The notes beneath the pieces were generated by a model. It had not been told where the DNA came from, did no database searches, and saw only the letters and a program-made list of their open reading frames with translations. Shown one piece after another: positions 28,816 through 33,341 of a stretch of 64,000 bases of DNA (its first letter is position 1; each line of letters opens with the position of its first letter). The stretch comes from Reichenbachiella ulvae. Lineage in GTDB: Bacteria > Bacteroidota > Bacteroidia > Cytophagales > Cyclobacteriaceae. The position numbers and the translations under genes were made by a program. The stretch spans positions 3,286,001 through 3,350,000 of the forward strand of contig NZ_JAOYOD010000001.1 of assembly GCF_025833875.1 (NCBI RefSeq). Reading direction: 5' to 3'.

Positions 28816-28843
28816 AAGGCCACTCGAAGGAGTGGCTTTTTTT
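28816..28843. terminator. Intrinsic terminator between dps and the LuxR regulator
   Basis: A perfect 7-bp stem GCCACTC / GAGTGGC with GAAG loop is followed by T7 on the plus strand, with three A on the opposite side. It lies between convergent genes and reaches the regulator's stop region. Confidence 0.85.
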
Positions 28844-29486
28844 ATTGTAACAATCCTTGCATCAGGGTCTGCTTCACCAACCCGGCTGTATTCTTTACTC
28901 GCAGTTTTGATAGCAAATTTTTTCGATGCGTATTGACCGTATGCTGAGAGATAAATAGTTCCTCCGCAATCTGTTGAGCTGTGTACTCCTCCACTATCAG
29001 TGCTAGTATCTCCCTTTCCCTTTTGCTCAATTCTACTTTTGGCTTCTCATCCGGAACCACTGCAAACAAACTCCTGGTATATTTTTCCTGAACCTCCTCA
29101 GAAAAATATTTCTCCCCCTGAAACACTTTTTTTATCCCATGAACCAACTCCTCTTTTTCAGCATTTTTCAATACATATCCCTCCACCTGTGCAGAAATCA
29201 ATTGATGAATAGTAGCCGGATCGCTATGGGTGCTAAGTACTAGTACCTTCGTGTTGGGCAATTCTTTTTTGATGTACTGACTGAGTTGGATCCCATCCAC
29301 TCCCGGCATACTGACATCCGTTAAGACCACATCGATGGGTTGTCCTTCTAACAATTGAATGGCCTCTTCTCCTGAACTAACGGTATCAACCACCTCTATT
29401 TCCTCCTGATCTTTCAAAATGGAATGAAGCCCTTGCAAAAACATTTTGTGATCATCTACTATCAGTATCCTAATTCCTTCCTTCAT
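28842..29486 (-). CDS. NarL/LuxR-family response regulator
   Basis: 214 residues: receiver domain (1-120) with DD at 11-12, phospho-acceptor D57 in VLTDVSMPG, and a conserved lysine in VLKNAEKEE; a LuxR-type HTH (about 148-214) with LSKREREILALI and FISQHTVNTHRKNLLSKL. Its start overlaps the stop of the upstream kinase by 4 bp (ATGA), so the two form a matched pair. Confidence 0.93.
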   Translation of the reverse strand: MKEGIRILIVDDHKMFLQGLHSILKDQEEIEVVDTVSSGEEAIQLLEGQPIDVVLTDVSMPGVDGIQLSQYIKKELPNTKVLVLSTHSDPATIHQLISAQVEGYVLKNAEKEELVHGIKKVFQGEKYFSEEVQEKYTRSLFAVVPDEKPKVELSKREREILALIVEEYTAQQIAEELFISQHTVNTHRKNLLSKLRVKNTAGLVKQTLMQGLLQ

Positions 29487-31501
29487 GTCATCATAGCGTT
29501 TGGTTCCTTTGTATTCAGAGGTTGTGGCAATGGCCAGTCTACGCTCACGATGGTTCCTCTTCCTATCTGTGAGTCGATGTGCAACCGTCCATTCAGCACT
29601 TTCACCCGTTGTTTGATATTGTCCAATCCAATGCCGTTCAAGCGCCTGGACCTATCAAAACCTCTTCCATTATCCTCAACCATCATATTGATCTCCTCCT
29701 CATTTTGCGTCAGAGCTACTTCTGCATAGCTGGCTCTGGAGTGCTTCATCACATTGGATACCAATTCTTGCAACACGCGATACATGTCTATTTTGTATTG
29801 GTCAGGCAGATAGTTGAGTGACAAATCCCTCGAAGCAATAAACTTAATCTCCAGACCTTCTAACGCACTAGATCTACTCTCGACAAAATCCCTTAGTAAA
29901 TAAACAAATGGTGCATTCAGTACTTTGGTAGTGCTCAGGTCATGTGACAGGGTTCTCACTTCATTGTAGGTCGAATCTACTTCTTGAATCAATTCCTCTA
30001 TGCCTGTTTGTTGACCCTTTAGCTGATTCAATTGCAATTTGATTCCGGCCAGTGTTCCCGCCACGCCATCATGCAGCTCTCGGGCTATTCTCTTACGCTC
30101 ATTTTCCTGGCCCTCCAGGCTCGACCTTATGTTTTGTATCTCTCCCTCTTTCAGAATTTCCTGGATAGTTCTCTGATTGATCTCTTCATTCTTCTGAGTC
30201 AGAATCTCCTTATTCTTCAACTTTTGAGAATAATTCTGAATCACTACCACTACCAATATCAAAAGCAGAGCACTACCAAAAACCGCTACATTTCGAATCA
30301 ATTTCTCCTTCTCAATTACAGCGTCATTCAAGGCTTGCTCGGATTGCAGCATAGATATTTCCTTTTCCTTCTTTTCTGCCTCATATTTAGCCAGCAGTTC
30401 TTCTATCTGATAATTCTTCTCCAGCGTAAAAAGGCTGTCCTTCATCTGCAAATGCTGAAAAAGATAGTCATAGGCTTGCTGATACCGACCCGCTCCGGCT
30501 TCATTAAAGGCCAGATTGGCGATGATAAACAAGAGGTCGTCAGAATTGATTTGCTCGGCAATGGCACGACTCTTCTTGTGATTGACTCGTGCAGAATCAT
30601 ATTGCCCCATTTCGAAATAAATCAAGCCAAGTTTGTTGTAAGACACCAGCAACAATGGCCAGGCTTCCTTTTTCTGTAATGACCTCAAGGCTTCCTTTTC
30701 ATATTCCAAAGCCTTGTCAAGTTTCCCCATATTCAGATATAGAGAGGCGATCATTCCCATGGTATAAGTAAACCCGTCCCAATCTTCATTTTTCCTTTGT
30801 AGCTCGAGGCTTTGTTTGAAATAACCCAGGGATTTGTCATAGGCCTCTCGTTTGGATTCTAGCATCCCAAGGTTGCCCAAAACCACGGCTTTGATAAAAT
30901 CTGAGGGTTCCAGTTTCAGGCATTTGAAGTAATAATCTCGTGCCATTTCGTAATGATCCTGCTCGAAATGTATGGTACCAATGTTATTGCTAATCCTTAT
31001 TTCTTGCTCCACGAAACCCTCCAATTCCGCAATTTCCAGTCCTTTGGAATAATTATCTAGACTAGCCACCAAATCTCCAAGGAATCTAAACGTTGAGCCG
31101 AGCTGTTTGTAGCTCATCATCAATCCATGTGGGTTGCCCAAAAGCTCATATACCTCTTTGGATAGAACAAAGGCCTTCACTGCCTTTTGCCCTTGTCCAG
31201 TTGTCAGGTACACCTCCCCTTTTTGAAAGGCAGTTTTAGCCATTCCTGCTTTGTAGCTAACCTTTTGACTCAGTCGAAAAGCTGAATCCAATAAAAGAAG
31301 AGAAGAATCCGAATGGACCCCTTCTTGCTTTGATGATTCAATGAAGGAATCTACCAGGGATTCGACCATTCGAGGCAAGTCGTACGGCAAAGCCTCCACA
31401 CGGCTCACCATACTGATTAACACAACTACCAAACCAATTGCCCACTTGCTGATTAACTCTCTCTTCATTGCTGGCAGCAAATATAACAGCCCCAAGTTCA
31501 T
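29483..31501 (-). CDS. NarL-type sensor histidine kinase with TPR domain
   Basis: 672 residues. An N-terminal hydrophobic signal/anchor (ISKWAIGLVVVLISMVS) and TPR repeats (about 60-360) lead to a coiled coil, one membrane helix (about 405-423), a HisKA_3 domain with H477 in RIARELHDGVAGTL, and a HATPase domain with NVMKHS and DNGRGFD. The start may be the ATG 11 codons in (MKRELISKWA), which leaves a cleaner signal peptide. Its TPR region is not the same as those of the kinases at 8590-12565. Partner regulator is encoded by the overlapping downstream gene. Confidence 0.92.
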   Translation of the reverse strand: MNLGLLYLLPAMKRELISKWAIGLVVVLISMVSRVEALPYDLPRMVESLVDSFIESSKQEGVHSDSSLLLLDSAFRLSQKVSYKAGMAKTAFQKGEVYLTTGQGQKAVKAFVLSKEVYELLGNPHGLMMSYKQLGSTFRFLGDLVASLDNYSKGLEIAELEGFVEQEIRISNNIGTIHFEQDHYEMARDYYFKCLKLEPSDFIKAVVLGNLGMLESKREAYDKSLGYFKQSLELQRKNEDWDGFTYTMGMIASLYLNMGKLDKALEYEKEALRSLQKKEAWPLLLVSYNKLGLIYFEMGQYDSARVNHKKSRAIAEQINSDDLLFIIANLAFNEAGAGRYQQAYDYLFQHLQMKDSLFTLEKNYQIEELLAKYEAEKKEKEISMLQSEQALNDAVIEKEKLIRNVAVFGSALLLILVVVVIQNYSQKLKNKEILTQKNEEINQRTIQEILKEGEIQNIRSSLEGQENERKRIARELHDGVAGTLAGIKLQLNQLKGQQTGIEELIQEVDSTYNEVRTLSHDLSTTKVLNAPFVYLLRDFVESRSSALEGLEIKFIASRDLSLNYLPDQYKIDMYRVLQELVSNVMKHSRASYAEVALTQNEEEINMMVEDNGRGFDRSRRLNGIGLDNIKQRVKVLNGRLHIDSQIGRGTIVSVDWPLPQPLNTKEPNAMMT

Positions 31502-31617
31502 GAAGCACGCTCATTGACATCACTAAAAATGGTGAATCTTTCATTTACCATTTTGTGGCGATGCATAAGATGGGGCTGGCCGCTAACCTTGCATTGTATT
31601 ATTTAACAAACAAAACA

Positions 31618-32313
31618 ATGATCAAACAAATTACTAAAATCAGCTTAACGATTGTGGTTTTGACATTAGCACTATTGTCAGAATCAAAGGCACAGAAATT
31701 AGACAAATTCGGTAGCTCTACTGAAAAATCAGTAGGTCCCAAAACCATCAGAGTACCTTATACAGATGTGATCTCATATCTGGGATACGCAGCTCCGGGC
31801 AACGAAGACGCAGTAGTAGACGACAAAAAATTCTATTACATCTACATCTGGGTTCCGGCTGTGGCACCAGAATTAGGAGTCAGAATGATGTCTCCAGTTG
31901 GAAATACAAAAATCAAAAATGCACTTGAGTCTGCAGACTTTCAAGACCAAAAGGGCAGCAAGGATTACTTTGATACATACATCACATTGGAGAGATCTGA
32001 TATCGTGTCAAAAGACAATATCAATCAAAATGCAGTAGACAATGCAAACTGGGTTGTTTTGGAAAGAAACGATGACAGTAGCGAAATGCCAAAGCAGCCA
32101 AGCGGAAGCAGCTATAATTCTCTTTTGAGATATAAAAGTGAAGCCAGCAATCCGGCAAAAGCGCTGACTGTTGGTCTGTACAGAGTTGGATTCACCACTT
32201 ACAAACGAGGTGAAGTAAACGGAACATTCCTTGCAGAAGTAGCCGCTCCTATCAAACTCCCAGGTGTAGCCATGGCTAAGACCCTGGATGAGCTAAACGA
32301 GCAATTGAAATAA
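31618..32313 (+). CDS. LipL32-like exported protein
   Basis: 231 residues from the ATG at 31618; the upstream extension of the frame is not signal-like. A signal peptide ends near ESKA/QK at residue 25, with no lipobox cysteine. The mature protein matches the Leptospira outer-surface lipoprotein LipL32 along its length as remembered from the family: a VPYTDVISYLGY block (47-57), YYIYIWVPAVAPELGVRM (73-90) and MSPVG, YFDT..LER (117-126), YNSLLRYK (166-173) and GLYRVGFTTYKRGEVNGTF (186-204). The poly-aspartate loop of LipL32 is reduced to NDDSSE. Function unknown; a surface or periplasmic binding role is inferred from LipL32. It is monocistronic with its own hairpin downstream. Confidence 0.82.
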   Translation: MIKQITKISLTIVVLTLALLSESKAQKLDKFGSSTEKSVGPKTIRVPYTDVISYLGYAAPGNEDAVVDDKKFYYIYIWVPAVAPELGVRMMSPVGNTKIKNALESADFQDQKGSKDYFDTYITLERSDIVSKDNINQNAVDNANWVVLERNDDSSEMPKQPSGSSYNSLLRYKSEASNPAKALTVGLYRVGFTTYKRGEVNGTFLAEVAAPIKLPGVAMAKTLDELNEQLK

Positions 32314-32368: not shown

Positions 32369-32767
32369 ATGACCGAAAGCACCATTTCTATCGTATTGGG
32401 AACTTTGACGATTCTCGTTTTACTTGCCAAAAGACTCTTTCCTTCTATTCAAAACAACATTTTACTTCTTTGTCAGGGCATCATCAGTGTTTGCTTTTGT
32501 GCCATTGGACTCTACCATTTTTTAGCAGACATCATGGCTTATCAAATTTCAGGACTTGCCCTAACCCAACAAGACCTGATGGCCAACTTATGCGACATAT
32601 TGGTCATCGCGCTAGGTGTGGTCATACTCAACGACTCCATATTAGCCATGAACTATCAAAAACTTAATTTGGAGAACCAACCCAGTCACTGGATGTTCAA
32701 AACCAAACAATTCATGTTGAGTATTGCTTGCGTGCTGGCAGGACTATATGATGTTTATGCGATCTAA
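32369..32767 (+). CDS. Small four-helix membrane protein, function unknown
   Basis: 132 residues with four predicted membrane helices: near residues 5-20, 30-58, 70-92 and 112-130. No motif recognised. It lies 55 bp after the LipL32-like gene across a hairpin and converges on a thioredoxin gene 7 bp away. Confidence 0.65.
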   Translation: MTESTISIVLGTLTILVLLAKRLFPSIQNNILLLCQGIISVCFCAIGLYHFLADIMAYQISGLALTQQDLMANLCDILVIALGVVILNDSILAMNYQKLNLENQPSHWMFKTKQFMLSIACVLAGLYDVYAI

Positions 32768-32774
32768 ATTTGGA

Positions 32775-33203
32775 TCAATTCAGTTCATCCAAAGAATTCA
32801 TAAAATCATTGCTTTTCAGATAGCCTACGATCTTTTGATGGGACTGAAGATCTGAACTAAATACAACCATGGTTGGAAGTCCTTCTATGGCCACTTGTTG
32901 AGCCAGTTCCTTTGCTGTGATAGCCTTGTCTCCGAAAACAAAACGTTGCGGGCTATCAAAATCCAACTTCACAGCATAAAACTCCTTGTTCATTCGCTCA
33001 GCCACTTCCTTATCCGAAAAGGTGGTTCTGTCCATCTTTTTGCACCATCCGCACCACTCAGCAGTGAAGTCGATAAAAATCGGGCGACTATCTGAGGTAT
33101 TCAATTTTTGCGCCTCCTCCAGCGTGTACCAGTTCATCTCCTGAGCCTGAGTAGCCCATGTCAACCCTAACAGTAGAGTAAGGCTCATTAATACTTTTTT
33201 CAT
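32775..33203 (-). CDS. Exported thioredoxin-fold protein
   Basis: 142 residues from the ATG at 33203 (MKKVLMSLTLLLGLTWATQA signal peptide); the frame extends upstream without a signal. A thioredoxin-like domain has the redox motif AEWCGWCKKM (C51, C54) and cis-proline segment IEGLPTMVVF. The CGWC motif with following KKM matches the DUF255/thioredoxin_7 type periplasmic disulfide-handling proteins. Role inferred: periplasmic thiol-disulfide exchange. Confidence 0.87.
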   Translation of the reverse strand: MKKVLMSLTLLLGLTWATQAQEMNWYTLEEAQKLNTSDSRPIFIDFTAEWCGWCKKMDRTTFSDKEVAERMNKEFYAVKLDFDSPQRFVFGDKAITAKELAQQVAIEGLPTMVVFSSDLQSHQKIVGYLKSNDFMNSLDELN

Positions 33204-33341
33204 GTTTCTTATTTTATTGGGTGAATAACGTTGCAACTGCATTTCTATTGATAAAGTTCGAATGAAAATCCGAAAATCCATCAATCGGTCGTATTTTTCG
33301 CTCCCAAGCGATTAATTTAACACTCTGAATCGTTCAAGCTT

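Follow-up and report, generated by a model that had tools for sequence, protein, structure and literature searches.

No lipoprotein of pathogenic Leptospira is more abundant than LipL32 (PMC4080168), whose role is still disputed (PMC3544172) and whose calcium cluster is made up of D132, T133, D164, D165 and Y178 (PMC5566480, PMC8951592). PtlL32, a relative from the marine non-pathogen Pseudoalteromonas tunicata, is the subject of a study published in 2014, which mentions eleven other species in its text and lists 11 strains, including P. tunicata and four Bacteroidetes with orthologs, in its Table 2. That study already reports that the family is present in Bacteroidetes and has probably spread horizontally; its main text uses none of the terms "lipobox", "lipidat" and "signal peptide" (PMC4080168). 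A regulatory system to be compared is FimS-FimR of Porphyromonas gingivalis, in which FimS carries periplasmic TPRs (tetratricopeptide repeats) and which controls fimbriae, an attachment structure (PMC11053733). Here we describe a LipL32-family gene of Reichenbachiella ulvae (Bacteroidota; Cyclobacteriaceae) lying in a stretch of 64,000 nucleotides, called the window in the following (assembly GCF_025833875.1, contig NZ_JAOYOD010000001.1, positions 3,286,001 to 3,350,000). From its sequence the encoded protein is firmly placed as a true LipL32-family member of an unlipidated Bacteroidota branch, and the gene is likely to be regulated by the kinase-regulator pair encoded beside it, as suggested by synteny and conserved sites.

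With LipL32 of pathogenic Leptospira (crystal structures 2wfk, 2zz8 and 3frl) the window protein has the sequence family, the fold and the five calcium ligands in common, but it is shorter (231 versus 272 amino acids), has no lipobox and possesses only a short acidic loop. Like PtlL32 it is a marine LipL32-family member from a non-pathogen, yet it comes from a different bacterial phylum. The Pfam model of the family (PF12103), which an earlier note on this DNA had proposed as a check of the LipL32 likeness read from its letters, was covered at all 179 profile positions with E 3.1e-81 (271.7 bits against a gathering cut-off of 25; the Pfam scan covered 10 window proteins), and the LipL32 crystal sequences 2zz8, 3frl and 2wfk were matched at E 7.7e-29 to 1.5e-28. 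The fold predicted for the window protein is the LipL32 fold of the PF12103 family, and the likeness in ordered blocks that the note had described is seen in the alignment (IYIWVPAV..LGVRM, FDT.I..ER, YNSL.R.K and GLYR..FTTYK.GEV.G). Identity to the LipL32 sequence P0121 amounts to 38%, and the score against the LipL32 equivalog NF038394 stays below its cut-off (109.1 bits versus 300). The same note was also correct in regarding LipL32 as a branch within a wider family found in the environment, yet this had been published in 2014 (PMC4080168). Membership in the family is already known; what we add is the count of conserved calcium sites, the description of the unlipidated branch and the link to candidate operators. 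The ATG at 31618, where the start had been placed before, opens the reading frame of 231 amino acids, and an upstream in-frame GTG at 31555 would give 252 amino acids with the signal peptide inside the protein. This GTG is probably not the true start because the extension (31555-31617) runs into the region of the candidate operator and promoter.

The ligand letters of LipL32 were confirmed on P0121, and by alignment mapping all five are retained in the window protein as D119, T120, D152, D153 and Y166. A complete set is present in 88/88 sequences of one alignment and in 246 of the 254 family proteins of a wider one, for which 7 of 261 proteins, shorter than 190 amino acids, had been left out. 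The five-aspartate run of LipL32 reads NDD in the window protein, and the longest acidic run near the calcium site comprises two residues in 195/254 proteins, three in 23, four in 9 and five in 27. Because the length of the acidic run varies while the ligands stay, the poly-aspartate run is, as judged from these alignments, a local feature and the calcium site itself is general across the family. The window protein had been said to lack the poly-aspartate loop linked to calcium binding; the loop is indeed reduced, but the calcium ligands are all present. A loss of the calcium site was ruled out, and a loss of calcium binding is not supported, as all five ligand positions are conserved; the window protein is predicted to bind calcium. 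What the family conserves is the calcium site, and neither the poly-aspartate run nor the lipid.

The N-terminus of the window protein (...SESKAQKLDKF) shows by inspection an end of the signal-peptidase-I type and there is no cysteine within the first 40 residues, in agreement with the plain signal peptide without a lipobox that had been read from the DNA. Its nearest relatives, described here as the best 120 of 1105 proteins found by a protein search at E ≤1e-3, agree with this: in all 120 proteins among the matches listed (query included) the signal peptide ends with A, S or G and is followed by QK or QR, and by sequence the 119 nearest listed relatives are unlipidated as well. P0082 alone of the 120 matches the lipobox pattern, inside the hydrophobic core and five residues before a signal-peptidase-I end, and was judged unlipidated. 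The nearest named organisms among the matches listed are Reichenbachiella, Aquimarina, Zhouia, Flammeovirga and Formosa, with several of the proteins called ‘Lipl32 family lipoprotein’, a label that, judged by sequence, misstates the anchor wherever the nearest relatives bear it. According to the assigned labels the lipobox is also absent from a large clade that includes a Pseudoalteromonas and Photobacterium jeanii. Lipobox carriers are Leptospira and its closest relatives, Pseudoalteromonas rubra, Marinomonas mediterranea and two metagenome-assembled genomes (MAGs), one from Treponematales and one from Planctomycetes. The proteins P0126, P0127, P0130 and P0132-P0134, which were judged lipidated, are 69-77% identical to the LipL32 query and group beside the named Leptospira LipL32.

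The lipid labels were assigned by eye: 48 of 261 proteins match the lipobox pattern, 13 of them were judged unlipidated since their cysteine falls within the hydrophobic core, ahead of an end of the signal-peptidase-I type; 2 proteins missing the pattern were judged lipidated. On a tree of 144 rows (including 21 of P0001-P0120, and with 18 fragments or near-duplicates of P0121-P0261 left out) the unlipidated label needs 4 changes, 3 of them forced by well-supported branches, and 3 changes when ambiguous rows are omitted. A 68-row subset of these rows after a 72% identity cut gives 3 anchor changes, 3 forced, and without the signal-peptide columns 5, of which 4 are forced. The lipid anchor has changed at least three times within the LipL32 family. 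It had been suggested by the earlier note that the unlipidated protein might be the ancestral form; lipidation would then have arisen in Leptospira. A domain-only tree would agree with this, as its midpoint root is lipidated with a probability of 0.26-0.28 only, but the tree from all columns raises this value to 0.90-0.99 (the 12 ambiguous rows were run as unknown, lipidated and unlipidated in this root-state test), and proteins judged lipidated are also present in P. rubra, M. mediterranea and the two MAGs. Since the root state flips with the columns used and the anchor forms interchange at least three times, the ancestral status is not established, and we regard it as rather doubtful.

The distribution of the LipL32 family is patchy. 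Hits to the Pfam model were obtained in 1/395 genomes of a phylum sample, namely in the window's own genome, and, with the own genome included, in 7/291 genomes of an order sample, in 7/98 relatives and in 4/8 genomes of the genus. This patchiness bears on the idea of a periplasmic protein that buffers calcium or stabilises the envelope, that has no role in attachment and whose linkage to surface genes in some loci is incidental. Ligands that are nearly invariant across the family would suit such a protein, as would the Bacteroidota members and the Pseudoalteromonas/Photobacterium-type clade being unlipidated by sequence; however, 7/291 and 1/395 genomes speak against a housekeeping role and a P. 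tunicata mutant is impaired in attachment (PMC4080168), and we consider this idea unlikely. Carriage by phages or plasmids was dropped after tblastn, as P0001 gave no match in the phage and plasmid collections and P0139 none in the plasmids, a result that does not extend to other mobile elements. In the Aquimarina pairs L019/L027, L018/L041, L017/L059 and L024/L063 two LipL32-family copies lie about 11-14 kb apart on one contig, and behind the first copy these genomes all carry the same set of three further genes.

The reading that we favour, and hold to be probable, is an unlipidated calcium-binding periplasmic protein that belongs to a surface-attachment programme and is controlled by the neighbouring kinase and regulator via paired sites. 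The window kinase has the layout of a periplasmic TPR sensor kinase of Bacteroidota like FimS, but it is not FimS by its score (61.3 bits against the cut-off of 600 of the equivalog NF053520, which ruled out this assignment), and the targets differ. We compared 75 loci, of which 74 came from a genome scan (best 80 of 240 relatives) and one is the window; 36 of them are Aquimarina. Within about 8 kb of the gene a TPR sensor kinase cluster is found in 37/75 loci, a LuxR-type regulator cluster also in 37/75 and both in 36/75, and kinase and regulator are both near the gene in 26 of the 39 loci without Aquimarina. In a tree limited to two kinases per named genus and to locus kinases of at least 500 amino acids, the adjacent kinases form one clade relative to paralogs from eight genomes (Shimodaira-Hasegawa-like approximate likelihood ratio test, SH-aLRT, 94), with two paralogs falling inside. 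A protein with four transmembrane segments (4-TM) is encoded near the gene in 57/75 loci and six scanned members showed no Pfam family over the cut-off. In the genus, the gene and the 132-amino-acid protein encoded downstream of it occur together, with an adjacent kinase, in 4/4 genomes, and the latter had no match in the 4 genus genomes without a LipL32-family gene. With the profile of the 4-TM family the 132-amino-acid protein reached E 0.0048.

Two candidate operators lie between the divergent kinase and LipL32-family genes (Table 1). NarL-type regulators bind as dimers to 7-2-7 sites, which fits the size of a 16-bp palindrome. Such palindrome pairs are present in 8 of 90 loci scanned, 13 pairs in total and all in Cytophagales: four Reichenbachiella (the window, L012, L139 and L140), two Fulvivirga, Marinigracilibium and one ‘Cytophagales bacterium’ record. 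Eleven pairs map as intergenic by script, and those of L139 and L140 are located between kinase and gene by gene coordinates. Among sites with at least 9/10 half-site positions, 7 of the 9 pairs at 17-60 bp stand exactly 26 bp apart, and 3 shuffles gave about one such pair each, all spacings taken together. The LipL32-family gene is preceded by a pair in 8/8 pair-bearing loci and the 4-TM gene in L039, L065 and L073; in L073 a pair is also flanked by the kinase gene on one side and, on the other, by the gene of an FG-GAP/HYR protein carrying a CHU_C signal of the type IX secretion system (T9SS).

Several observations weigh against this regulatory link. The palindrome motif was derived from the same loci in which it was counted, which is why the spacing, and not the motif, is the independent part. 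Single strict sites are in mild excess only (38 versus a shuffled mean of 21, maximum 34), in operator 2 the right half matches and the left half is degenerate in the window genome, and no palindrome pairs were found in the Flavobacteriaceae operons among the 90 loci. Of the order-sample genomes that hold the gene, only 2 of 7 (G000 and G481) show the kinase pair next to it; the 4-TM profile A4 matches none of these 7 and matches 5 gene-negative genomes, in two of which the kinase pair is near the 4-TM gene, and G396 keeps the kinase pair without a LipL32-family match. The kinship of the 132-amino-acid protein with the 4-TM family is doubtful as well (hhalign probability 17%, E 0.0015). One might think of the kinase pair as a chance neighbour, or as regulating only itself, with the palindromes belonging to the kinase promoter. 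In the window either divergent gene could be the target, and the regulator module also exists without a LipL32-family gene because G396, G673 and G714 hold the pair without it. However, in L039, L071 and L073 palindrome pairs precede a LipL32-family gene that has a gene other than the kinase as its neighbour, and three loci have pairs before the 4-TM gene too; we consider this alternative improbable. In L133 (G714) and L132 (G673), where no LipL32-family gene was found, the kinase-regulator pair is located near the 4-TM gene, and in L016, L023 and L053 (Aquimarina, Maribacter) single palindromes of the same type without a paired partner lie upstream of the 4-TM gene.

For the proposed control by kinase and regulator we suggest the following model. 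The LipL32-family protein would be exported by Sec and lose residues 1-25 to signal peptidase I; as a mature jelly-roll protein it would stay periplasmic because it has no lipid anchor and because the Pfam and NCBIfam scans revealed no T9SS sorting domain in it. Judging from its FimS-like layout, the divergent TPR kinase most likely senses an envelope signal within the periplasm, and its LuxR-type partner would bind the pair of 16-bp palindromes, which start at a distance of 26 bp from each other, and activate the LipL32-family gene. In relatives the regulator might also activate the 4-TM membrane protein and the predicted T9SS-exported FG-GAP/HYR surface protein, the gene of which adjoins a PorP/SprF gene. 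A calcium-stabilised envelope protein would thereby be made on commitment to surface life and could aid attachment like the P. tunicata ortholog, a function suggested by analogy. The model is in line both with the impaired attachment of the P. tunicata mutant (PMC4080168) and with LipL32 being reported as subsurface (PMC3544172).

A direct role as surface adhesin, reaching the cell surface by an unspecified route and binding host matrix as proposed for LipL32 and PtlL32, appears improbable to us too. Recombinant LipL32 and PtlL32 do bind matrix structures, and a ptlL32 mutant attaches less to matrix and alga (PMC4080168); predicted T9SS-exported surface proteins are also encoded at some loci. 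However, the window protein has neither a lipobox nor a T9SS sorting domain, LipL32 itself is described as lying for the most part below the surface and Leptospira mutated in lipL32 as equally adherent to extracellular matrix (PMC3544172), which weakens an adhesin role in our own proposal as well. Extending the attachment programme to the family, we tentatively put forward that in Bacteroidota LipL32-family proteins could be the output of a dedicated two-component system with a FimS-like TPR kinase, a LuxR-type regulator and paired palindromes exactly 26 bp apart, which might jointly switch on the unlipidated, calcium-binding LipL32 relative and the small 4-TM protein, joined in some species by a T9SS-exported surface protein and the SprF-type partner of the latter. 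If true, Leptospira LipL32 would be a lipid-anchored offshoot of a periplasmic attachment partner and not an adhesin by origin. Among the listed papers on LipL32 with Pseudoalteromonas, Bacteroidetes, Flavobacteria, kinases or two-component systems, and on the T9SS, gliding and Aquimarina, such a regulator link was not found in titles and the starts of abstracts. An unlipidated branch with a calcium site, a candidate regulator and operator and environmental hosts offers a tractable place to ask what the LipL32 fold does.

Table 1: Features of the LipL32-family locus, in window positions.
Feature	Position	Strand	Remarks
LipL32-family protein gene	31618..32313	+	231 amino acids; PF12103 over residues 42-219
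Predicted signal peptide, residues 1-25	31618..31692	+	S-K-A before Q; signal peptidase I type; site by inspection
D119 T120 codons	31972..31977	+	equivalent to LipL32 D132 T133; alignment mapping
D152 D153 codons	32071..32076	+	equivalent to LipL32 D164 D165; D/D in 254/254
Y166 codon	32113..32115	+	equivalent to LipL32 Y178; Y in 248/254
Candidate operator 1, 16-bp palindrome TCACTAAAAATGGTGA	31520..31535	.	between kinase and LipL32-family genes
Candidate operator 2 TACCATTTTGTGGCGA	31546..31561	.	starts 26 bp after operator 1
Possible -7 element of LipL32-family gene, TAACCTTG	31584..31591	+	putative, by eye
Sensor histidine kinase	29483..31501	-	hydrophobic segments 15-33 and 404-422 around TPR repeats, then HisKA_3 and HATPase_c
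Response regulator	28842..29486	-	receiver and LuxR-type (GerE) DNA-binding domain
132-amino-acid protein, four hydrophobic segments	32369..32767	+	next gene downstream; no Pfam family over cut-off

Some further features of the locus were noted. The right half of operator 2 is part of a GYGATGYAT element, present in 7/82 upstream regions overall and in 7 of 10 loci that were picked after the element had been seen. A CTAAYMTTGCA similar to the possible -7 element is carried by the four Reichenbachiella rows; the Bacteroidota -33/-7 promoter pattern was rejected as a general feature as it occurs in only 3/78 upstream regions (shuffled mean 0.4). The codon adaptation of the LipL32-family gene is 0.63, the third highest of 47 window open reading frames, compared with a median of 0.71 for a reference of 34 open reading frames from the ribosomal-protein region, a few of them not ribosomal, and gives no more than a hint of high expression. 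An internal methionine at 31468 is a possible start of the sensor histidine kinase. In many Flavobacteriaceae loci (e.g. L068:7269-7886) a cluster with a SIMPL-family (PF04402) protein as its scanned member, present in 26/75 loci, is located before the LipL32-family gene. Genes for a ferritin-like (PF00210, 28349-28792) and a thioredoxin-like protein (32775-33284) flank the module in the window, and similar flanks are found in L139 and L140.
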